Origin: Sulfurimonas sp. HSL3-1
Lineage (GTDB): Bacteria > Campylobacterota > Campylobacteria > Campylobacterales > Sulfurimonadaceae
NCBI RefSeq assembly: GCF_039645995.1
Contig: NZ_CP147920.1
Location: 1,550,001 to 1,614,000, forward strand
Reading direction: 5' to 3'
DNA length: 64,000 nt
A program made the position numbers and the translations under genes. Numbering within the stretch: the stretch's first letter is position 1; every line of letters begins with the position of its first letter. The notes under the pieces are model-generated. The model had not been told where the DNA came from, searched no databases, and was given only the letters and a program-made list of their open reading frames with translations. Below are positions 3,312 through 24,443 of this stretch, one piece after another.

Positions 3312-4820
3312 TTAAATATTATTTTTAAAATGAAAGACGGTGAGATTGGTGCGGCGAAAACCGCGCCGGGTGTAGAAGTGCAGTGCGTTTTCATTGTCGA
3401 TATCCGCGGCGAGTTGGATGCGTTTGTAGCCGTACGACTGTGCCATGAAACGCATTTTGTTGATGAGACGGCTGCCCACACCCATCTTACGGTACTCCTG
3501 TAACACGACGAGGTCCTCGATCTGTCCGACAAAATCCCCCTCGGCGCTGGAGATGAGACGCTGCATCGTCAGCATGCCGACGACCTTCCCCTCGTGACGC
3601 GCGACAAGCAGGTCGGTCCCTTCGTGGGTGTAGAGTTTCGCGATCCCCGAGAGCTGCTTGTCGAAGTCGATCTCGAAATCCTGTTCGATCGCGAAAAGCA
3701 CCCCCAGCAGTCCCGCCATATGCGGCAGGTCCGCCTCCGTTGCAGGCTCGATTGTGATCCCCGTTTTCATATTGATATCGCAGATCTCCGGGTGGAGCAC
3801 TTCGATGACGAGCTTCGCATGTTCGTTCAGCGGATTGTCGCCGATATAGAGCGACTGCAGGTTCTTCATATTCGCCAGCGCTTCGGGAAGATCCACGATA
3901 GCGTTACCGTCGATATCGAGTTCGTACAGTTCGGCATAGCGGCTGATCGATTCGGGCACCTCGGCAATGGCGTTGGAGGAGTAGCACAGAGACCCCAGGG
4001 CGGTCGACGGCACCATCGGGAATGCCGTCAGCCCGCAGCCGTCGCAGGAGAAGGCCCGCAGATAGGGAGCAAAGTCGTCCGCGATCTCCAACGAAGCGAG
4101 CGCATTATCGTCGAGCGTCAGCACCTCGAGCTCCTCCAGCCCGTGTAAGGCGATGTGGCGGAGACGGTTCGAGGCGAGATTGACCGATTCGACCCCCAGG
4201 GTGAAAAAGGCCTTGTCGATCGTCTCGATGCGGTTGTCGGAAAGATCCAGCTCCAGCAGGGAACTGAAGTACGCCGCCTCCGGCGGGACACTTGTGATCA
4301 GGTTGCCTTCGAGGTTCAGCCGTTCGACGGACGTGAGCTGGGCCGGCATCGCGGAGATATCATTAATGTAGTTGGTCGCGAGGTTGAGGGTGCGGAGTTC
4401 GTTGGGTACGCTCAGACAGCGCTCAAAACTTTCGAGAACGTTGCCGCTGAGATCGAGGACCCGGAGCGTCGTGCAACGGCTCAGTTCTGAAACGTCGCCG
4501 ATGCGGTTCCCGCTGAGGTTGAGCGAACGGATCGGGGACATGCCCAGGATGGCCGGAACGGCCGTGAAAACGTTGCGCCGAAGATCGACGTTGCTCAGTT
4601 TCGTCATCGACGCCATGGAATCCGGCAGGGATGAAAGCTTGTTGTTGCCCAGATTGAGCGCGACCAGTTCGCTGAGCAGTCCGAACGCTTCGGGCAGCTG
4701 CTGCAGGGAACGGCTGCTGAGATCGAGGCGCTTCACCTCAGCGGGCGCTTTGATCTCCGATGAAATGGCCCGCTGTTCCATCAGCCATGCGCGCAGTGTC
4801 TCCCATTGCCTTTCGGGCAT
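3312..4820 (-). CDS. Leucine-rich-repeat protein fused to a GNAT acetyltransferase domain
   Basis: Residues about 25-330 form a run of roughly a dozen leucine-rich repeats with the pattern LxxLxLxxNxL (for example LVALNLGNNKLSSLPDSM). Residues about 355-500 are a GNAT N-acetyltransferase domain, with the acetyl-CoA loop in the segment QEYRKMGVGSRLINKM. The LRR part probably binds a protein partner and the GNAT part may modify it. I chose the ATG at 4820 because AAGGAG lies seven bases upstream; a GTG at 4826 would give a four-base overlap with the preceding gene but sits too close to that ribosome binding site. It is the last gene of the leftward run from the FeoA gene. The substrate is unknown. 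Confidence 0.85.
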   Translation of the reverse strand: MPERQWETLRAWLMEQRAISSEIKAPAEVKRLDLSSRSLQQLPEAFGLLSELVALNLGNNKLSSLPDSMASMTKLSNVDLRRNVFTAVPAILGMSPIRSLNLSGNRIGDVSELSRCTTLRVLDLSGNVLESFERCLSVPNELRTLNLATNYINDISAMPAQLTSVERLNLEGNLITSVPPEAAYFSSLLELDLSDNRIETIDKAFFTLGVESVNLASNRLRHIALHGLEELEVLTLDDNALASLEIADDFAPYLRAFSCDGCGLTAFPMVPSTALGSLCYSSNAIAEVPESISRYAELYELDIDGNAIVDLPEALANMKNLQSLYIGDNPLNEHAKLVIEVLHPEICDINMKTGITIEPATEADLPHMAGLLGVLFAIEQDFEIDFDKQLSGIAKLYTHEGTDLLVARHEGKVVGMLTMQRLISSAEGDFVGQIEDLVVLQEYRKMGVGSRLINKMRFMAQSYGYKRIQLAADIDNENALHFYTRRGFRRTNLTVFHFKNNI

Positions 4821-4822
4821 AC

Positions 4823-5089
4823 TCACTCTCCTTCCGCCAAACGGCGTATCCGCTCGAGTCGCTGTTCAATGAGGTGTTCGATCTCTTCAAAATCATAGGT
4901 ACCGAACTGGTTCATATCGTACAATTTTACCAGTGCCGCGCGGCAACAACTCTTATTGCATTCGGTCACAAGTTTTTTTGCTTTTTTAAATGGGAGGGAG
5001 GTATTTTGAAAGATGTCGATGGCCTCGGCCACGTTTTTTTCGCCGCATTCGCAGATCTCCATCCGGAGGATCTCTTCTTTAGTGCGCAT
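4823..5089 (-). CDS. Unknown 88-residue cysteine-containing protein
   Basis: I do not recognise the family. The protein is soluble and helical, with five cysteines: CxC near residue 13-15 (ICECGEKN) and CNKSCC around residues 44-49. Such grouped cysteines suggest metal or Fe-S binding or a redox role. It lies within the nif cluster between the CCE_0567-family gene and the LRR-GNAT gene, and its stop codon touches the start of the latter, implying one transcript. The C-terminal third (EEIEHLIEQRLERIRRL) is a charged helix. Function is not known. Confidence 0.75.
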   Translation of the reverse strand: MRTKEEILRMEICECGEKNVAEAIDIFQNTSLPFKKAKKLVTECNKSCCRAALVKLYDMNQFGTYDFEEIEHLIEQRLERIRRLAEGE

Positions 5090-5634: not shown

Positions 5635-6459
5635 TTAAAGTGAAAATGCGTATATATTTTCGAACTTAATCGTATTGCCGCCCTTGCTCATATGGACGAA
5701 CTTCTGTTGTTGCTTGAAGTGGTACTTCTCATACAGGTCCACGACCGGCTTCACGCCGAGGGGAACGTCGGCAAAGACTTTTTTGAGGCCCCGGAAATAG
5801 AGGACCCCTTTCATCATCTTCTCCGCTTCATCCTCATGCCCTTCACGGACCTGCCAGGGGCCCAGATAGACATGGCGTGCGTTCACGACGCTGGAGTGCT
5901 GGAAGGCATTGGGCAGCGTGAACTTGAGTGAGCTTGTGCGCTCCATCTCGTCCATGAGGAAGTCCAGACGGTTCTCACCGAAGGTCTCATGGTCGATGAC
6001 GGAGATGGCGGACTCGAAATTGCCGCCGTCAAGCTCTTTGGCATGGGCATTGGTGAAGTTGAACGGCGGTACCTTGCCGACATTGATGAAACGACCCACT
6101 TCGATATTGGATTCAAAGCCGTGGGCTTCGAAAAACGGCACGAGGTCCGGATTGGCATGGAGATAGATTTTGCGGAAATCGTTCTCCAGTACCGTCAGAA
6201 GCGTCTTGAAAAGGCGGGTGCCGATTCCCTTCTTCTGATACTCCGGGCGTACCATGAAATATTTCATCTGTGCCGTTTCGGAAAAACCGATGGACATAAT
6301 CGCCCCGACAAGCTTGCCGTCTTCATAAGCACCGTAACACAGATGCGGCGAGTGCATCATCATCAGTTTGATATGGTATCCGTCAGCGAGCCAGCCTACC
6401 GTATCGGCAATCTTGACCAGTTCACTGACGTCTGCGAATTTGAGCCATCCTATGAACAT
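5635..6459 (-). CDS. GNAT acetyltransferase with a second C-terminal domain
   Basis: The 274-residue protein has an N-terminal GNAT fold with the acetyl-CoA loop around residues 75-90 (VRPEYQKKGIGTRLFKTLL) and FFEAHGFE at its end. A C-terminal half of about 130 residues resembles the extra domain of YitH/HolE-type acetyltransferases (YLGPWQV, then a DVPLGVKPVVDLYEKYHF segment). It overlaps the 3' end of nifV by 10 bp, so the two are co-transcribed. It is a second, unrelated acetyltransferase in this nif cluster besides the LRR fusion. Its substrate cannot be read from the sequence. Confidence 0.8.
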   Translation of the reverse strand: MFIGWLKFADVSELVKIADTVGWLADGYHIKLMMMHSPHLCYGAYEDGKLVGAIMSIGFSETAQMKYFMVRPEYQKKGIGTRLFKTLLTVLENDFRKIYLHANPDLVPFFEAHGFESNIEVGRFINVGKVPPFNFTNAHAKELDGGNFESAISVIDHETFGENRLDFLMDEMERTSSLKFTLPNAFQHSSVVNARHVYLGPWQVREGHEDEAEKMMKGVLYFRGLKKVFADVPLGVKPVVDLYEKYHFKQQQKFVHMSKGGNTIKFENIYAFSL

Positions 6460-7571
6460 TGGCTCTGCCTGTAAAGAGATACGAGCTCCATGTCGTCAAG
6501 GACCTGCTTTCGTGACGTGACGATTTCGCGGATCCGTGGCAGCAGTGAGTGCAGCGCACTCTTTTCGGCAGTAATACCAAGCTGTTTGAGATGGTACATG
6601 ACCGTGCCGGTTCCCGAATGTTTGCCGATGGGGAAGGCGCGAAGCCCCCCGACCTCTTCGGCATCAAACGGTTCGTAGGCACGGCTGTTTTTCATCATAC
6701 CGTCGGCATGAATACCGCTCTCATGAGCAAAAAGGCGCTCCCCGATAATGGGAGCATTCGGCGCGATGGTCACGCCCGCCGCCTCGGCGACGATGGCGAT
6801 GAGCGAACGCATCTGCATCGCGTCGATATGACGCGCGTCGCCGTAGAGATGCTTGAGGGCCATCGAGATCTGCTCGAACGAAGCGTTGCCCGCCCGTTCG
6901 CCCAGTCCGATAACGGTTGTATTGACGCTCTGTGCACCGGCATCGAGTCCGCTGAGCGCATTCGCATTGGCAAGACCGAAATCATTGTGCGTGTGCATTT
7001 CGATCGGAAGGAGATTGAGGGAAACCAATGCTTTGATGGCTTCATAAGTGCGCGTCGGTGTCAGAATACCGACGGTGTCGCAGTAGCGGAAACGGTCAGC
7101 ACCGAGCGCATGGCCCAGCTGCATCACTTCGGCAATAAAGGAGAGATCGGCACGGGAGCTGTCTTCGGCTCCGATGCAGACATAGAGTCCTTCGCGTTTC
7201 GCGGCCAATATGACTGCCTCGAGTTGCGAAAGCATCCGTTCCTTGTCACCGCCGAACTTGACGTCGATCAGAATGTCAGAAACGGGAATGGAGAGGTCAA
7301 CGGCCGGCACGCCGCATTCAAGCGATGCCTCAAGATCACGCATCGTCGCACGGTTCCAGGTCATCATCCGTGCACCCAGCCCCAGGGCCAGAAGCTCGCG
7401 GATGTCTTCTTGTTCGCGCGTTCCCATCGCGGGAATACCGATTTCGAGTTCATCGGCGCCGCACGCATCAAGCGCGCGGGCGATCGCTATCTTTTCAGCG
7501 GTGTTGAACGCCACATAGGGCGCTTGTTCACCGTCACGTAACGTCGTGTCGTTGATAAAAGCCATTTCCAT
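6450..7571 (-). CDS. nifV: Homocitrate synthase NifV
   Basis: Condenses acetyl-CoA with 2-oxoglutarate to homocitrate, the organic component of FeMo-co. The 373-residue TIM-barrel protein begins FINDTTLRDGEQAP, the signature of the HMGL/isopropylmalate synthase family, and has the metal-binding HTHNDFGLANANAL motif near residue 195 and the GERAGN motif near residue 224. It lacks the C-terminal regulatory domain of LeuA, which favours NifV over isopropylmalate synthase; location between nifB and other nif genes supports this. Two in-frame ATGs (7571, 7565) both have usable ribosome binding sites. Confidence 0.95.
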   Translation of the reverse strand: MEMAFINDTTLRDGEQAPYVAFNTAEKIAIARALDACGADELEIGIPAMGTREQEDIRELLALGLGARMMTWNRATMRDLEASLECGVPAVDLSIPVSDILIDVKFGGDKERMLSQLEAVILAAKREGLYVCIGAEDSSRADLSFIAEVMQLGHALGADRFRYCDTVGILTPTRTYEAIKALVSLNLLPIEMHTHNDFGLANANALSGLDAGAQSVNTTVIGLGERAGNASFEQISMALKHLYGDARHIDAMQMRSLIAIVAEAAGVTIAPNAPIIGERLFAHESGIHADGMMKNSRAYEPFDAEEVGGLRAFPIGKHSGTGTVMYHLKQLGITAEKSALHSLLPRIREIVTSRKQVLDDMELVSLYRQSQCS

Positions 7572-7674: not shown

Positions 7675-9090
7675 TTAGTTCGCTTCCATCTCCTCGGGGA
7701 GATTGAAGTATTTGCGTGTTGCTTTCAGGACGGAAGCTTCCATCGGCTGATAAGCGTAGCTCATGTCGGCGACGAGGCCGGCAGCTTTGAGGTCATCCTG
7801 CGGACAACCGCCGATCTTCGCCGTGAGGATCAGCTTACAGTCTTTGAGTTTTTCAACAATAGCGTCGATCGGGTTCGTGCCATCCGGACCTGCACAGTAC
7901 TCATAGTCGAGTTTGCGGTGGTGGATGAAGCGGATACCGAGGTCGCCTGCTTCGTAGATGAGGAACTCTTTGACAGAACCGAAGTGCTGGTTGATCATAC
8001 CTTCGCCCGCTGTCGTAACGGCAACGAGGATCGTCTGACCGTCAGAACTGAGGTCTGCTTTCTCTTTACGGACACGCTCGTTCGCTCTGTCAAGGAAGAA
8101 GCGGAACTCTTCGATCTTGGCGTGCGCCTCTTTGCGTCCTTCAACGTTGTAATGCTCTTCGAGTGCGTCGAAGCTCATTTCTGCGAAGCGTTCTTTCGTG
8201 AATTCCGCACCGCGGTCTTCACCGATCAGACCGACGGCATCTGCGCGGCACTGGCGGCAGTGCTGCATCAGTTTCATATCCATACCGCACGCTTCTTGCA
8301 CTTCCATCTGCTGCTGGTCAGTCGCAGACGGAACACCGTCGAGGGCGAATTTCGTACCGAACTCCGGCTCGGAGATGATCGGCATGATGTTGTGGAGGAA
8401 GACACCGATCTCTTTCAGTTTCTTGGAAACTTCCGGCAGGTGCTTGTCGTTGATACCCGGGATCAGAACGGAGTTCGCTTTGATGAGGATACCGTGTTCA
8501 ACACACTTCGCCATACCTTCGAGTTGCTTCTCGAGCAGGATGCGTGCCGCTTCTTTGCCGTAGATACGTTTGTTGTTGTGGTAGATCCACGGATAGATTT
8601 TCGAACCGATCTCACCTGTTTCGTCGACAGAGTTGATCGTGACCGTGATGTGGTCAATGTCATATTTGACCATTTCGTCAACGTAGTCCGGCAGGGCAAG
8701 ACCGTTCGTAGAGAGACAAAGTTTCAGGTCAGGCGCTTTTTCGCGGACCATTTCGAATGTCTTGAATGTTTTTTCCGGGTTGGCGAGGGCATCCCCCGGT
8801 CCGGCAATACCAAGAACACTCATACGCTGAACTTCACCGCCGACGAACATAACCTTCTTGACGGATTCTTCCGGCGTCAGGCGTTCGCTTGTAACCCCAG
8901 GACGGCTCTCGTTGGAACAGTCGTATTTACGGTTACAGTAGTTACACTGGATATTACATGCCGGTGCAACCGCAACGTGGATACGTGCGTAGTGGTGGTG
9001 GGCTCCTTCAGAGTAACATGGGTGATCGTGGACCTTTTCTGCAATATCAGCTGGCAATGCTGATTCTGTTGGGCTTGAACCGCAGCTCAT
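7675..9090 (-). CDS. nifB: FeMo-cofactor biosynthesis protein NifB
   Basis: Radical SAM enzyme that makes NifB-co, the 8Fe-9S-C core of FeMo-co. The ATG at 9090 has AAAGGAG upstream and gives MSCGSSPTES, 471 residues. The SAM cluster motif CxxxCxxC is Cys45, Cys49 and Cys52 (APACNIQCNYC). Further conserved cysteines follow (YDCSNESRPG; ACGMDMKLMQHCRQCRADAVG). From about residue 360 there is a C-terminal NifX/NafY-like domain (TILVAVTTAGEGMINQHFG), the two-domain form found in many bacteria. It is transcribed divergently from a NifX-like gene; the shared intergenic region carries CGACAA motifs. Confidence 0.97.
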   Translation of the reverse strand: MSCGSSPTESALPADIAEKVHDHPCYSEGAHHHYARIHVAVAPACNIQCNYCNRKYDCSNESRPGVTSERLTPEESVKKVMFVGGEVQRMSVLGIAGPGDALANPEKTFKTFEMVREKAPDLKLCLSTNGLALPDYVDEMVKYDIDHITVTINSVDETGEIGSKIYPWIYHNNKRIYGKEAARILLEKQLEGMAKCVEHGILIKANSVLIPGINDKHLPEVSKKLKEIGVFLHNIMPIISEPEFGTKFALDGVPSATDQQQMEVQEACGMDMKLMQHCRQCRADAVGLIGEDRGAEFTKERFAEMSFDALEEHYNVEGRKEAHAKIEEFRFFLDRANERVRKEKADLSSDGQTILVAVTTAGEGMINQHFGSVKEFLIYEAGDLGIRFIHHRKLDYEYCAGPDGTNPIDAIVEKLKDCKLILTAKIGGCPQDDLKAAGLVADMSYAYQPMEASVLKATRKYFNLPEEMEAN

Positions 9091-9405
9091 TTTAGCTCCT
9101 TTAATAGATGTATAGGTTTGACGAACCTGACCTTGCATCATGTAGCTACAATCATATTCTGCTGCCAATGTTGCAAACCCTATTCCAGCCCTTTTCCCCG
9201 TGTTGGGGCTACCACCACCGACAATCTCGACAATTTTGTCCCCTCACCCCACACCATATTGCACCGCAACATTATTAAATAGCAACTCATACACAAAGGC
9301 GTATTTCCGTCTAATCCACGGCGGGCGGGGAACTCCCGACTGGAACGCATCTTGCAATTTACGCTGCAAGTACGCCTGATTCCGGGCGACGGTAAAGGAA
9401 AACCT
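9091..9405. promoter_or_regulatory. Divergent promoter region of nifB and the NifX-like operon
   Basis: A 315-bp region without a credible gene. It contains CGACAA at 9219-9224 and 9228-9233, the latter forming the palindrome GACAA-TT-TTGTC (9229-9240). The same core, ACAATTTTGTC, occurs upstream of amtB, and related copies occur upstream of nifH. No clear -10 box was assigned to either side. Confidence 0.55.
9229..9240. promoter_or_regulatory. GACAATTTTGTC palindrome, candidate nif operator
   Basis: A perfect 12-bp palindrome preceded by a second CGACAA eight bases away. It lies about 165 bp from the start of the NifX-like gene and 140 bp from the nifB start, and matches the motif upstream of amtB (20755-20767). 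Confidence 0.5.
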
Positions 9406-9846
9406 ATGAAGATCGCTGTCCCGTTCAATCAACAGCTTGAGCTCTATCGCGATAACCCTTCGACCGCCCCGAAATTCGGTATTTATGAAATCGTTATGGA
9501 AAAGAGCCGGGTCGGTATCTCACTGCTGAGCGTCGAGATGAACCCGTGGTGCAAAACGGCGTGCGGCCTTTTTGACACCTCTTCGACCACGTGCACCTGC
9601 GATGAAGAGCGTCAAAAAGACATCCGCCATATCACCGAACACTATGCCCTGCTTGAAGTGCTCGCCGGCTGCAGCTACCTGCTGGCCGACCGTTTCTGCG
9701 ACAACACCAAACGGGCATTGACCAACGGCGGCATCCACCTGTTCAAATTCCCCTCCGTCATCCGTACGACGGAGAACGCCATCAAAAATTTCATCATAGG
9801 AGCTTCGCTTGCAAATACAGTTGAACACGTCTACTATGCGTCTTGA
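9406..9846 (+). CDS. NifX/NifB C-terminal-domain family protein
   Basis: A 146-residue single-domain protein of the dinitrogenase cofactor-binding superfamily (NifX, NafY, NifB C-terminus). It begins MKIAVPFNQQLELYRDNPST and keeps the FGIYEI strand, where family members have the FG..K.F.iYev pattern. It has several cysteines (WCKTACGLFD, TCTCDEE, GCSYLLADRFC), more than typical NifX. A role in carrying FeMo-co precursors is likely from the family; the cysteines might bind a cluster. AAAGGA precedes the ATG. It is the first gene of an operon divergent from nifB and overlaps the next gene. Confidence 0.8.
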   Translation: MKIAVPFNQQLELYRDNPSTAPKFGIYEIVMEKSRVGISLLSVEMNPWCKTACGLFDTSSTTCTCDEERQKDIRHITEHYALLEVLAGCSYLLADRFCDNTKRALTNGGIHLFKFPSVIRTTENAIKNFIIGASLANTVEHVYYAS

Positions 9847-10318
9847 AGAGCAGCCGCTTGACATCGGGTACGCTTCCGAAAAGGTCATGCTCAAAGCCCC
9901 GGACGGTACGTCACAGAGCGTCGGGGGACAGGACGGCAAGACCCATCTGATCGTAACGGTCCCTTTTATAGATGACAACTGCATCGCCGAACTGCAAGCC
10001 ATCGGCAAGGCCCTTCCGAAAGCCGACGACGTCACCGCGTCGCTGATCGTCGCCGCGACCTCCCACGAGGACCCTAAGGTCGAAGGCTTCCGCTTCCTGC
10101 TTGACAGCGACGAAGAGTTCGCCGACTGGTACGGTGTCCGCCTCAGCGGTGAGCCCCTCGACGGGGAGCTGACCAAGGCCCTGTTCATCATCTCCAAGGA
10201 TGGTGCACTCTACTATGATGAATTTGCCAAGAACCTGCATGATCCGTTCAACGCCGAAACGGCCGTACGGAAAGTCTATGCTGCGCAGGAATGCTATACC
10301 GGAAAAGGATGCCACTAA
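9809..10318 (+). CDS. Thiol-peroxidase-like (thioredoxin-fold) protein
   Basis: The start is a TTG with AGGAG six bases upstream, inside the 3' end of the NifX-like gene; an ATG at 9836 has no ribosome binding site. The 169-residue protein follows the Tpx layout: a TVPFIDDNC segment where Tpx has VPSLDTPVC, and a C-terminal ALFIISKDGALYYDEF strand pair. One cysteine (near residue 52) sits close to the peroxidatic position, but the expected resolving Cys of Tpx is absent; a second pair is at the extreme C-terminus (ECYTGKGC). It may protect oxygen-sensitive nitrogenase parts, or be a non-catalytic relative. Confidence 0.7.
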   Translation: MQIQLNTSTMRLEEQPLDIGYASEKVMLKAPDGTSQSVGGQDGKTHLIVTVPFIDDNCIAELQAIGKALPKADDVTASLIVAATSHEDPKVEGFRFLLDSDEEFADWYGVRLSGEPLDGELTKALFIISKDGALYYDEFAKNLHDPFNAETAVRKVYAAQECYTGKGCH

Positions 10319-11184
10319 TGAGCGAAACAATGACAACAACAGAGACCAAAGACTACAGTGAACTGATCGAAACGATCAAGAAAGAGATCCGCAACCAGAC
10401 GACCGTCCCCTATTTCGGGCTGGGAATCTTCAAAGGCATCACGACCAAAGAGGGTGAACAGATGCCCTTTGACTCGGATTCTATGATCCTGATGATGAAC
10501 AACGGCCGTGCCATGAGCCCGCGTCTGATGTTCGAATACTCCCGCGCCGCCATGCACCTGGAACAGCGCCGGGGCGTCGACTACATCCAGCAGATGACCA
10601 ACTGGATCTATACCAAGGAGTTTGAACCGACGCCGCTGCACAAGGCGATCCTCAACATGTCTCCGCGCTTCATCATCGACACCAACCGCGATGCCAAGCT
10701 GCAGGAGATGCTCGCCTTCGAACCGCACACGCTCATTATCGGGAAGTCCCGTATCCTTGACAACGACTACCGCTACGAGATCTACGAGTGGGATGTCGAG
10801 AACAAGAAGTACTTCCAGGTAGACGAAGAGGCCCTCGACGACGCCCAGAAGATTATCTTCAAGCCAATGGGAGCACCGCTGCCGGAGCCGAGCTTTGTCA
10901 TCTCCGACGCCGACTACGTCGACTGGCTCACCGAGGCGATGGGCGGTTTTGCCGTGCCGTCCGTGCTCAAAACCTACCGCAAGACGAAAAAGTACCTCTT
11001 TATGGGTACCTATTTCGACCGCGACACCGACCGCATGGTCGCCAACGAACTGACACACGATCTCGAGGGCGGTTACTTCATTAGTGACCAGGAGCTCGGA
11101 AAGAAAGAGAAAAAGTTTGTTGAAAAACACAACCTCGAACTGATCGAGATGTCTCTCGAAGCCTTTACCGAGGCCTTTATCTAA
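10318..11184 (+). CDS. SIR2-like domain protein in the nif cluster
   Basis: The 288-residue protein has the layout of bacterial SIR2-like domains: TVPYFGLGIFKG replaces the usual PFxGAGxS nucleotide-binding loop, then SRAAMHLEQRRG, the EPTPLHKAIL helix, RFIIDTNRDAKLQEML in place of the TTNYDxLLE motif, and LFMGTYFDRDTDRMV in place of LGxSxRDxxxR. Several of these are altered (GLG for GAG, DTNRD for TTNYD), so NAD hydrolysis may be lost or changed. Its ATG overlaps the stop of the Tpx-like gene (TAATG). SIR2-like domains are often defence NADases; this context suggests a nitrogenase-related role instead. Function unknown. Confidence 0.7.
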   Translation: MSETMTTTETKDYSELIETIKKEIRNQTTVPYFGLGIFKGITTKEGEQMPFDSDSMILMMNNGRAMSPRLMFEYSRAAMHLEQRRGVDYIQQMTNWIYTKEFEPTPLHKAILNMSPRFIIDTNRDAKLQEMLAFEPHTLIIGKSRILDNDYRYEIYEWDVENKKYFQVDEEALDDAQKIIFKPMGAPLPEPSFVISDADYVDWLTEAMGGFAVPSVLKTYRKTKKYLFMGTYFDRDTDRMVANELTHDLEGGYFISDQELGKKEKKFVEKHNLELIEMSLEAFTEAFI

Positions 11185-11277: not shown

Positions 11278-11874
11278 ATGCCATACATACCAACCGTAAA
11301 AGACAGAACCCCCCGGGGCGAACGCTATTTTGACCTTTTTTCCAAACTGATGGGCGACCGTGTCATCATGATCACCGAACCGATTGACGACCACATGATG
11401 GGGATTATCGTCTCCCAGCTGCTTTATCTTGAAGCCGAAGATTCCGAAGAGCCGATCCACATGTATATCAGTTCTCCGGGCGGTTCGGTCATGGCGGGCC
11501 TCGCCATCCTTGACACCATGCAACTGATCAGCGCGCCGGTCTACACTTACGGTCTGGGCATGGTCGCATCGATGGCTGCCGTTCTCTTTACCTGCGGCGA
11601 ACCGGGGCACCGCTACGTGCTCCCCAACGCTGAAGTGATGATCCACCAGCCCCTGGGCGGTGCGCAGGGCCAGGCCAGCGATATCGAGATCCAGGCCAAC
11701 CACATTATCAGCCTCAAAAAACGGCTCTACAAGATCCTCGCCGAAGCGACCGGCGCGACAGTCAAAACCATTGAGAAAGCCAGCGATCGGGACAACTACT
11801 TCATTGCTGAAGATGCTATCAAATTCGGTCTGGCGGACCAGATCCTCAATGCTATTACGAAAAAGGAAGTCTGA
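11278..11874 (+). CDS. clpP: ATP-dependent Clp protease proteolytic subunit ClpP
   Basis: The 198-residue serine protease has the catalytic triad Ser98 (GMVASMAAVLF), His123 (MIHQPLGG) and Asp172 (SDRDNYF). The sequence around the serine deviates from the usual GQAASM. It is followed at once by clpX (TGATG overlap), and both sit downstream of the nifB-divergent operon. In Azotobacter vinelandii a nif-linked ClpX2 controls levels of NifB and NifEN (established knowledge), so this pair could be a nif-dedicated Clp protease. The general housekeeping ClpP could also be this one; the window cannot show whether a second copy exists. AAAGGAAAC precedes the ATG. Confidence 0.93.
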   Translation: MPYIPTVKDRTPRGERYFDLFSKLMGDRVIMITEPIDDHMMGIIVSQLLYLEAEDSEEPIHMYISSPGGSVMAGLAILDTMQLISAPVYTYGLGMVASMAAVLFTCGEPGHRYVLPNAEVMIHQPLGGAQGQASDIEIQANHIISLKKRLYKILAEATGATVKTIEKASDRDNYFIAEDAIKFGLADQILNAITKKEV

Positions 11875-13100
11875 TGAGTACCAAAGAAGAAAAAACATGT
11901 TCGTTCTGCGGGCGTAAGCAGAGCGAAGTGAAAAAAATGTTCTCTTCTGAGAACACCAATATCTGTAACGAGTGTGTCACGACCTGTTCGAACATCCTGC
12001 AAAAGGAAGTCCGCTACGAACAGCAGGAAAAACTGCACCAGGAGCTGCCGAAGCCCGCGAAAATCGTCGAGTTCCTCGACAAGTACATTATCGGTCAGGA
12101 GGACGCGAAAAAAGTCCTCGCCGTCGCACTGTACAACCACTACAAGCGGATCGAAAACCCTATCTACAATAATGTCGAACTGGAAAAATCGAACATCATG
12201 CTGCTTGGACCGACGGGAAGTGGTAAGACGCTGCTCGCCAAGTCCCTTGCCAAGATCATGAACGTCCCCTTCGCCGTCGCCGATGCCACGGCCCTGACCG
12301 AAGCAGGCTACGTCGGCGAAGACGTCGAGAGCATCCTCTCACGCCTCCTTGCCGCGGCCAACTACGACATCGAAGCCGCCCAGCGCGGGATTATCTACAT
12401 CGACGAGATCGACAAGATCGCCCGTAAAAGCGAAAGCGCCACAATGGGCCGCGACGTCTCCGGCGAGGGTGTCCAGCAGGGTCTGCTCAAGATCCTGGAG
12501 GGCAGCGAAGTCTACGTCCCGGTCAAAGGGAGCCGTAAAAACTCCACAACGGAGACCGTCCTCTTCGACACGACGCACGTCCTCTTCGTCTGCGGGGGCG
12601 CCTTCGTCGGCCTCGTGCCGGATAAGCATACGAAGCGCACCAATAAAGTCGGCTTCGCGAAGGTTCAGAAGAGCGAGATGGCTGCCGACTTCAAAGTCGA
12701 CCAGCGCGCGCTGGTCCACTACGGTATCATCCCCGAGTTCATCGGGCGTATCCCGGTCATCGCGCAGCTGCGCGAACTGACCAAGGATCAGATGGTCCAG
12801 ATTCTCCAGGAACCGGACAACGCCCTGATCAAACAGTTCCAGGCGCTCTTCGAGATGGACGGTATCACCCTCGAGTTCGAAGAGAAGGCCCTCGAAGCGA
12901 TCGCCCAGCAGGCGATCGACAAGGGTGTCGGCGCCCGCGGTCTTCGCGGGATCATCGAAGAGGCGATGCTGCCACTGCAGTACAGCTGCCCCTCAAGAGA
13001 GAACCTCGAGAGTGTCACGATCACCGAGGCGGTCGTCGCCGACCCGACAACCGAACCGATCTATACCTTCAAAAAAGAGGACGAGAGCGCCGAGGCGTAA
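11874..13100 (+). CDS. clpX: ATP-dependent protease ATP-binding subunit ClpX
   Basis: AAA+ unfoldase of ClpXP, 408 residues. The N-terminal C4 zinc finger uses Cys9, Cys12, Cys31 and Cys34. The Walker A motif GPTGSGKT is at residues 112-119 and Walker B (YIDEIDKI) near residue 174. The pore loop (GYVGEDVE) and the sensor-2 [11 protein letters not shown] region are present, so it should be active. It overlaps clpP by one base and is the last gene of the operon. A short stem-loop follows at 13112-13134. See clpP for the nif link. Confidence 0.95.
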
Positions 13101-22030: not shown

Positions 22031-22408
22031 TCAGGCGCTGCGCTGAGCACCTTTGTGGAAAATGCGCAGCAGCCACAGGGGCGGCTGCGTATTCAGCATC
22101 TCGTGGATCTGGTCGATCGCGCCCTGGAGCGCTTCACCCTCCTTGACCTGCACGGGGTGAATCCCCGCAGCCTGGACCATCTTGGATGCCTTCGGACCGA
22201 TCTGGGTGCAATACAGAATATCCGCCTCTTCGATCGTGCCGATCTTGTAGTTGAGTTTCGCCACTTCTTCCTCAGGCTCGTCCGAGCTTTCAATAACTTT
22301 GAGCAGCGTCGCGCTCTCCTTATCGACCTCGTACAGATGGAAGGTTTTGGACCAGCCGAAGTGCTGATCGATCTTTTCGCCCGTGGATGAAGCAAATGCG
22401 ATTCTCAT
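22031..22408 (-). CDS. nifX: FeMo-cofactor carrier protein NifX
   Basis: The 125-residue protein begins MRIAFASSTGEKIDQHFG, with FHLYEV following, the signature of the NifX/NafY cofactor-binding family. It has the GTIEEADILYCTQIGPKAS segment and a C-terminal tail WLLRIFHKG typical of NifX. It carries NifB-co or VK-cluster between NifB and NifEN in other diazotrophs. It lies between the two ferredoxin genes in a leftward operon, preceded by a 176-bp gap with two hairpins. Confidence 0.9.
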   Translation of the reverse strand: MRIAFASSTGEKIDQHFGWSKTFHLYEVDKESATLLKVIESSDEPEEEVAKLNYKIGTIEEADILYCTQIGPKASKMVQAAGIHPVQVKEGEALQGAIDQIHEMLNTQPPLWLLRIFHKGAQRSA

Positions 22409-23464: not shown

Positions 23465-24364
23465 CTACATCAGGTAAAGGACGACATTTTTGTCGATCAG
23501 CTCCTCGAAAGCGTCGAGCAGCATATCCGCCGTCGAGGTTGAACCGAGGTGACAGCCCGAGCAAGCGCCCAGGTAGTTCAACCAGATCTGCGGCGTCTCC
23601 CCCGGCACGTAGTTGAGCAGTTCGATCCCGCCGCTGTCGGCTTCGAGTGTCGGGCGGATCTTCTGGTCGATAACCTGCATGACCAGCGTAATCTGTTTTT
23701 CCACCGGCAGACTGCGGAACGGCTTGTTCAGCACCGTCGCCAGTTCCTTGTTGCTGACGTAGGTGACAACTTCCTGCGCCCGCACATTGTTATTGTGCGC
23801 GGCGGTAATCAGGTAGCGCATCGCTTCGGCCTTCTCGCCCGCTTCTTTGAGGAGCATGCCCGCTTTGAACTGGGCGTCGACATGCCCGATATCGGCTGCC
23901 TGCTTGAAATAGGTAAGCGCATCCTTCTCATTGGGCGTACCGTCGAGCCCTTTTTCGAAGATCTGCGCCAGGCTCATCATCGCATGCATGCTGCCCTGCT
24001 CGGCCGCCTTTGCAAACCACTCTTTTGCCGCCTCGATGTCGCGACCGCATCCTTTGCCCTGCATCGCCATGACGCCCAGGTTCACCATCGCATTGGCATC
24101 CGCTTTTGCCGCCGAATCGACAAAGAGGTCATACGCCTCTTTATACTGTTTCGCCTCGTAGGCACTGACTCCTGCTTCGAATGTCGTCATTATCTGCTCC
24201 TCCTGACTTTGAAAATAGGCTTCGAGCCGTTCATATGCATCCTCTTCGGCCTCCTCGAAGGTATCGCCGATTCCTTTGATCTCCGGGAACTCGACGAACT
24301 GGGCAACGCAGCCGTCCCCCTCCTCGTTGGAAAAACCGAAATAATCAAGTGCATACTTTTTCAT
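23465..24364 (-). CDS. HicB-like / Sel1-repeat / NifU C-terminal domain fusion protein
   Basis: The 299-residue protein from the ATG at 24364 (AAGG upstream) has three parts. Residues 1-55 resemble the HicB-like fold (DYFGFSNEEGDGCVAQFVEF, then GIGDTFEEAEEDAYERL). Residues about 65-205 are Sel1/TPR-like repeats (AMVNLGVMAMQGKGCGRDIE; AMMSLAQIFEKGLDG; AQFKAGMLLKEAG). Residues about 220-299 are a NifU C-terminal (Nfu) domain: IRPTLEADSGGIELL and the cluster motif Cys268-x-x-Cys271 (GACSGCHLGSTS). It is the first gene of the leftward nifX operon and may be the Fe-S scaffold that adapts clusters to a Nif partner. The combination is unusual. Confidence 0.85.
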   Translation of the reverse strand: MKKYALDYFGFSNEEGDGCVAQFVEFPEIKGIGDTFEEAEEDAYERLEAYFQSQEEQIMTTFEAGVSAYEAKQYKEAYDLFVDSAAKADANAMVNLGVMAMQGKGCGRDIEAAKEWFAKAAEQGSMHAMMSLAQIFEKGLDGTPNEKDALTYFKQAADIGHVDAQFKAGMLLKEAGEKAEAMRYLITAAHNNNVRAQEVVTYVSNKELATVLNKPFRSLPVEKQITLVMQVIDQKIRPTLEADSGGIELLNYVPGETPQIWLNYLGACSGCHLGSTSTADMLLDAFEELIDKNVVLYLM

Positions 24365-24375
24365 AGCCAGCCTTA

Positions 24376-24413
24376 TGCAAAGAACGTTCCAGAAGTATGG
24401 AACATTTTTTGCA
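24376..24413. promoter_or_regulatory. 38-bp imperfect palindrome in a divergent nif promoter
   Basis: TGCAAA (24376-24381) with TTTGCA (24408-24413), and GTTCCA (24386-24391) with TGGAAC (24398-24403), share one centre of symmetry at 24394.5; only two of the four intervening base pairs mismatch. It lies in the 79-bp gap between the leftward Sel1-NifU operon and the rightward NifX-like operon, so it is probably a regulator site for both. Confidence 0.7.
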
Positions 24414-24443
24414 ATATAAGGAAAAATCATCTAAGGAGGCGAC

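Follow-up and report, generated by a model that had tools for sequence, protein, structure and literature searches.

The window analysed here, a stretch of 64,000 nucleotides from Sulfurimonas sp. HSL3-1 (contig NZ_CP147920.1, positions 1,550,001 to 1,614,000 of the forward strand), carries one operon of five genes on the + strand, which faces away from nifB and encodes, in this order, a NifX-like protein, a Prx-like protein, a SIR2-like protein, ClpP2 and ClpX2. The features of the locus, numbered from the first letter of the window, are as follows.

6450-7571, - strand: nifV (homocitrate synthase; TIGR02660, 477 bits), downstream of nifB
7675-9081, - strand: nifB (TIGR01290, 565 bits), the divergent neighbour, with its ATG at 9081
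9172-9187, - strand: sigma-54 promoter match, TGGAATAGGGTTTGCA, facing nifB
9341-9356, + strand: sigma-54 (-24/-12) promoter match, TGGAACGCATCTTGCA, 50 nt upstream of the ATG of the NifX-like gene
9406-9846, + strand: NifX-like gene, ATG 9406 to TGA 9846, 146 aa
9809-10318, + strand: Prx-like gene (predicted Tpx fold), starting at TTG 9809 (169 aa) or at the annotated ATG 9836 (160 aa), stop at 10318
10318-11184, + strand: SIR2-like gene, ATG 10318 to TAA 11184, 288 aa, its ATG overlapping the Prx-like stop (TAATG)
11278-11874, + strand: clpP2, a nif-only ClpP paralogue, present as a second ClpP in the same 17 own-family genomes with nifB
11874-13100, + strand: clpX2, a nif-only ClpX paralogue, with the RKH pore loop changed to RKN and a divergent zinc-binding domain

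The initial annotation had described three overlapping + strand genes between 9406 and 11184, divergent from nifB, as an operon. Coordinates, strand, overlaps and orientation were all borne out, but the operon extends beyond 11184, with clpP and clpX following on the same strand. The three reading frames are not chance ORFs, since each of the proteins is conserved in many genomes (identity within each family is 71-97% for SIR2, 44-99% for Prx and 31-99% for the NifX-like protein) and the gene overlaps are conserved too: the Prx stop and the SIR2 start overlap or lie at most 5 nt apart in 38 of 54 loci, with a spacing of -8 nt in 12 of 15 distant loci, while SIR2 and clpX are separated by -16 to +2 nt in 17 loci from other families. 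For the Prx-like gene, TTG 9809 is the likelier start than ATG 9836, because the extra N-terminal residues are conserved in relatives and GGAG lies upstream. The opposite strand carries nifB, nifV, two GNAT-domain genes, FeoA and nifH. The GNAT-domain genes of this nifB-nifV-nifH operon, one of them a leucine-rich-repeat/GNAT fusion (3312-4826 and 5635-6459, - strand), recur in related nif loci.

The gap of 324 nt between nifB and the NifX-like gene holds the two sigma-54 matches as an outward-facing pair. The pattern TGGNAN6TTGCA has 4 matches in the 64-kb window against 0.28 expected, and similar sites were found in the nifB/operon gaps of relatives in 5 of 25 cases facing the operon and in 3 of 25 facing nifB (background 2.5% per 500 nt), so that these sites are enriched, not universal. 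NifA upstream sites (TGT-N10-ACA) numbered 6 in the window against 7 expected, with 0 in the nifB gap. Elsewhere in the window, a Sel1-repeat/NifU fusion (23465-24430, - strand) lies near divergent sigma-54 sites at 24376-24391 (-) and 24398-24413 (+).

Co-occurrence with nitrogen fixation and the second ClpXP

The co-occurrence was measured in 220 high-quality Campylobacterota genomes, sampled evenly across the phylum. Of these, 26 have full-length NifB and 194 are the others; 14 genomes whose only NifB-like match is short were kept out of the full-length class. The initial annotation had tied the SIR2-like gene to cofactor synthesis from its place beside nifB, and this linkage holds across genomes: the gene is present in 25 of the 26 full-length-NifB genomes and in 0 of the 194 others (Fisher p 5e-32), or in 15/16 against 0/36 when counted by genus (p 4e-12), and its relatives lie in plasmid nif operons as well. 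ClpX2 was found in 20/26 against 0/194 and the Prx-like protein in 17/26 against 0/194. All 17 genomes with the Prx-like protein carry SIR2 and ClpX2 too (Prx against ClpX2 within the nif genomes, p 4e-4), and SIR2 and clpX2 are neighbours in 19/19 sampled genomes that carry the two, clpP2 separating them in the own family. Six Sulfurospirillum-type genomes carry SIR2 without ClpX2 or the Prx-like protein, and one genome (G206) carries ClpX2 without SIR2. A scan of genomes gave 80 loci, of which those with informative titles were Campylobacterota, with nif neighbours in most. DraT (PF07357), a NAD-using nif regulator, gave 0 matches in the 220 genomes, the control genomes being equally silent.

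In a second set of 60 relatives, the SIR2-like gene was present in 17/17 nifB-bearing genomes of the own family and in none of the family's others. Possible exceptions in this set are two drafts (G037 and G052) which have SIR2 and ClpX2 and no full NifB match. The former carries the gene order SIR2-clpX2-NifA-like. In the latter (1.4 Mb, 97% complete), fragments of SIR2 lie at the ends of contigs, and an apparent NifX-like gene and ClpX2 are present without a nifB match (L158 4674-5066; L161 4937-5166; L162 12442-12717), which reflects either an assembly gap or use of the module outside nitrogen fixation. In genomes of family f11 (e.g. G194 and G126) we observed NifB-like radical SAM proteins, mostly of about 282 aa, which are without the C-terminal Nitro_FeMo-Co part; these genomes are without the SIR2 or ClpX2 of the nif module.

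Second ClpP and ClpX copies are found in all 17 nifB-bearing own-family genomes (one of these, the draft G029, being without a housekeeping ClpX match). ClpP2 is ~49% identical to the genome's other ClpP, and ClpX2 proteins are 60-100% identical to each other and about 49-52% identical to housekeeping ClpX. In a comparison of 67 ClpX2 and 8 housekeeping ClpX sequences, ClpX2 keeps the AAA+ core, the GYVG pore loop and the four Cys of the zinc-binding domain, but only 23% of the consensus positions of this domain are the same and the RKH loop reads RKN. In E. coli ClpX, the zinc-binding domain and the RKH loop read adaptors and clients. The gene orders SIR2-clpX2-nifA and clpX2-nifA exist (L163, L157), and clpX2 or SIR2 adjoins a NifA-like activator (L163, L157 and L126). 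As a separate observation, a NadB-like gene, named from its N-terminal sequence only, adjoins nifA-SIR2 in Sulfurospirillum-type genomes and clpX2-nifA in G206 (L126 4561-6282; L114 4656-6293; L157 5446-7101), and is a possible second NAD link. In the literature, clpX/clpP of Azoarcus are under NifA control (PMC3916325), and the ClpX2 of A. vinelandii regulates NifB and NifEN levels according to the title of Martinez-Noel 2011, cited in PMC5715403.

Beyond the phylum, a relative of the SIR2-like protein (21-26% identity) is encoded in 73 plasmid records, in 71 of which the match covers at least 80% of its length. All five of the regions opened, rhizobial and methanotroph ones, were nif operons, typically in the order nifA-nifB-fdxN-(nifZ)-nifT-SIR2. 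With a rhizobial SIR2 query, 76 plasmid records were found against 239 with nifB, the two genes lying within about 7 kb in those records that, on inspection of the rows, were seen in both sets. In five nif regions (rhizobial, Bradyrhizobium and Methylococcus), SIR2 has no annotated clp gene beside it. Published work also lists SIR2 family proteins from nif clusters: Rcc03262 of Rhodobacter capsulatus went undetected in a nifA mutant (PMC6925177), PST_1325 of Pseudomonas stutzeri (PMC11332353) and a Rhodovulum protein (PMC9412634) are named in passing, and ZMO1821 of Zymomonas mobilis, whose level rises during N2 fixation, has been guessed to act as a deacetylase (PMC8594446, PMC8600466). No functional test of such a protein was found in the literature searched. 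The SIR2 component is thus a known but unstudied nif-associated annotation, which takes away part of the novelty claimed for the module at the outset; the literature searched contained no report of SIR2 combined with a degenerate Prx and a nif-only ClpXP.

The same distribution bears on whether the SIR2-like protein acts with ClpXP2, as we propose below. The main rival reading, which we regard as only slightly less likely, is that the SIR2-like protein helps directly in cofactor assembly, as a NifT/NifZ-like accessory of NifB or NifEN, with the Prx-like protein as its partner, and shares an operon with ClpXP2 only as fellow nif genes. SIR2 persists without ClpX2 in the six Sulfurospirillum-type genomes, and also in rhizobia, where its place is behind nifB-fdxN-nifZ-nifT. 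Among full-length-NifB genomes, SIR2 tracks NifB (25/26) more closely than it tracks ClpX2 (19/26). Because ClpX2 is missing from those six genomes and no clp is annotated in the rhizobial and Methylococcus regions, SIR2 need not be a ClpX2 adaptor. What speaks for a closer tie to ClpXP is that SIR2 and clpX2 are adjacent in 19/19 cases elsewhere, with spacing near zero or overlapping.

Properties of the SIR2-like, Prx-like and NifX-like proteins

The AlphaFold model of the SIR2-like protein (pLDDT 91) was closest to the solved structures of ThsA (Z 19.8, 240 residues aligned), DSR2 and KomC, the three together spanning Z 17-20, and on the model the protein has a SIR2 fold of the ThsA/DSR2 type. 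These matches came from the fold search, the SIR2 profile having given chance hits only against PDB sequences. PF13289 (SIR2_2) matched 38/38 members of the family at E<=0.01 (best 2.5e-10), the window protein itself scoring 20.6 bits, under the 24.5 cut-off. The altered motifs GLG and DTNRD, which had been pointed out from the sequence, are present, and a Phe follows the altered GAG motif in the family (GLGIF/GMGVF). The catalytic residues were mapped by alignment with a canonical SIR2_2 protein of a relative (L137, with TTNYD and KFHGD). The catalytic Asn of the TTNYD motif (ThsA N112) is kept as N123 in all 38 members, and the catalytic His (ThsA H152) is replaced in all 38, KLHG having become KP[M/L]G (30 M, 8 L; M184 in the KPMG of the window protein). 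In rhizobial relatives the His is kept and the Asn lost, and in the Methylococcus relative both are lost; such a shifting loss between lineages would be expected if the conserved function is something other than catalysis. Judged by these residues, the SIR2-like protein looks catalytically degenerate.

The expectation that a SIR2-like protein would be an NAD hydrolase, which in this setting would deplete NAD+ when oxygen or phage stress arises and so shut down either the cell or its nitrogen fixation, did not survive the loss of the catalytic His in 38/38, and we consider such an activity very unlikely. The fold is that of the ThsA, DSR2 and KomC NADases and the Asn is retained throughout, but either N112A or H152A abolishes the activity of ThsA, H152A disturbing oligomerisation too (PMC7272460); in addition, the rhizobial relatives are without the Asn and the Methylococcus one without both residues, and no defence-gene context was seen. 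A defence island was considered separately and rejected: the presence of the gene tracks NifB rather than a normal defence context, and the search for antiphage SIR2 systems gave only a weak PADLOC match (E 0.004).

Lysine deacetylation is still less probable. It would undo acetylation of Nif proteins by the two GNATs of the neighbouring nifB-nifH operon, as proposed for ZMO1821 in Z. mobilis, where Nif proteins are acetylated (PMC8600466), and the recurrence of the two GNAT-domain genes in related nif loci is in its favour. Deacetylation by the SIR2-like protein is, however, unlikely because there is no zinc site: the four-Cys zinc module of sirtuin deacetylases is missing, with no CxxC in the 38 members and 0 Cys in the window protein, and SIR2_2 proteins are without the zinc module that deacetylation needs (PMC12700824). 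The catalytic His is missing as well.

The model of the Prx-like protein (pLDDT 89) superposes on the Tpx of Aquifex (2yzh) with a TM of 0.82, and the Redoxin Pfam match is above the cut-off, so that the protein is predicted to have the Tpx fold. The initial annotation had named C49 as a candidate peroxidatic Cys and seen no resolving Cys; C49 is there, but its position is not conserved, a Cys occupying the peroxidatic column in 2/34 relatives, lying within 5 columns in 4/34 and at that column in none of the distant families. Full conservation is seen for one Cys only, the C-terminal C159, which lies within an invariant G158-C159-H160, with Y154, T155 and G156 nearly invariant, and this tail is predicted to be flexible (last three residues pLDDT <50). 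With neither peroxidatic nor resolving Cys conserved in the family, the peroxidase reading fails and the protein, by its sequence, is not a peroxidase; a true thiol peroxidase protecting NifB from peroxide, for which the fold, the Pfam match and C49 near the peroxidatic position could be cited, is highly improbable given these counts and a further Tpx-like gene elsewhere in the genome.

The NifX-like protein is Cys-rich as described initially, with 6 Cys. C65, H75, H79 and C98 are invariant in 22 relatives and C63 and C89 nearly so, and these conserved Cys/His are possible metal or cluster ligands. Matches to known families are weak: Nitro_FeMo-Co (PF02579) scored 13.4 bits with the window protein (cut-off 26.3) and matched 8/22 members at E<=0.1 (best 4e-4), the best PDB match of the profile was 1rdu (E 0.058), and hhalign against NifX gave 20% probability. 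From these the protein appears to be a very divergent Nitro_FeMo-Co relative. An ordinary NifX-family gene is found separately at 22031-22408.

Proposed function and comparison with known systems

In these sulfur-oxidising bacteria, a nif-dedicated ClpXP module with two degenerate enzymes is well supported, and the operon points to a dedicated, apparently undescribed control of nitrogenase assembly. The initial idea of a redox, NAD or oxygen-response module is thus kept in its link to nif and given up in its peroxidase and NADase nature. The reading that we tentatively favour is turnover of cofactor-assembly proteins or NifA by the nif-only ClpXP, with the SIR2-like and Prx-like proteins as sensors or adaptors. 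ClpX2-ClpP2 would be the executing protease, and its likely clients, by analogy with Azotobacter ClpX2, would be NifB, NifEN or other proteins of cofactor assembly, or else NifA. Our grounds for inferring the adaptor role are the gene coupling, the invariant tail and the degenerate active sites. The putative pocket of the SIR2-like protein may read a nicotinamide- or ADP-ribose-type ligand, although in ThsA neither the N112A nor the H152A mutant bound NAD (PMC7272460), which speaks against a ligand. The flexible GCH tail of the Prx-like protein may dock to a partner or bind metal, and the two together may gate or select ClpX2 clients by redox or energy state. The more specific proposal, that the pair forms a redox or NAD sensing adaptor complex delivering nitrogenase-cofactor assembly proteins to ClpXP2, is rather doubtful at present. 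The NifX-like protein probably serves to carry or chaperone a NifB-co-type cluster, and the operon may be regulated by NifA.

The stability and oxygen sensitivity of NifB and NifEN limit the transfer of nitrogenase to plants and other hosts, and an operon of a dedicated protease and two degenerate enzymes offers testable candidates for how diazotrophs keep cofactor assembly in step with their redox or energy state. The "SIR2 family protein" annotations of proteobacterial nif clusters gain a working hypothesis from it, and the SIR2-like protein illustrates how metabolism can recruit a defence-type NADase fold.

Among known systems, the ClpX2 of Azotobacter vinelandii is, by the title of Martinez-Noel 2011, likewise a second ClpX linked to nitrogen fixation, and the one of the window lies near nifB; the clpX2 of the window differs in standing behind SIR2-like and Prx-like genes and, within the own family, in being accompanied by a dedicated ClpP2. 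The rhizobial, Bradyrhizobium and Methylococcus SIR2 proteins share full-length homology (21-26% identity, E 1e-12 to 1e-19) and a nif operon context with the window protein, whereas the rhizobial ones show the reverse pattern of catalytic residues, and no Prx-like or Clp partner is annotated alongside them. Rcc03262, PST_1325 and ZMO1821 are likened to the window protein by their nif-cluster annotation, not by sequence. The defence SIR2_2 NADases ThsA, DSR2 and KomC share the fold, but the SIR2-like protein has no sensor or C-terminal domain, is missing the catalytic His and stands in a nif context. With NifX and other Nitro_FeMo-Co proteins, the NifX-like protein has the nif context in common, together with a weak Pfam match in 8/22 members, and it is set apart by its own invariant C65, H75, H79 and C98. 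The thiol peroxidases of Aquifex (2yzh) and Helicobacter pylori (Tpx) share the fold of the Prx-like protein at 21-22% identity, from which it differs in that the peroxidatic and resolving Cys are not conserved and in having its own invariant C-terminal GCH tail.
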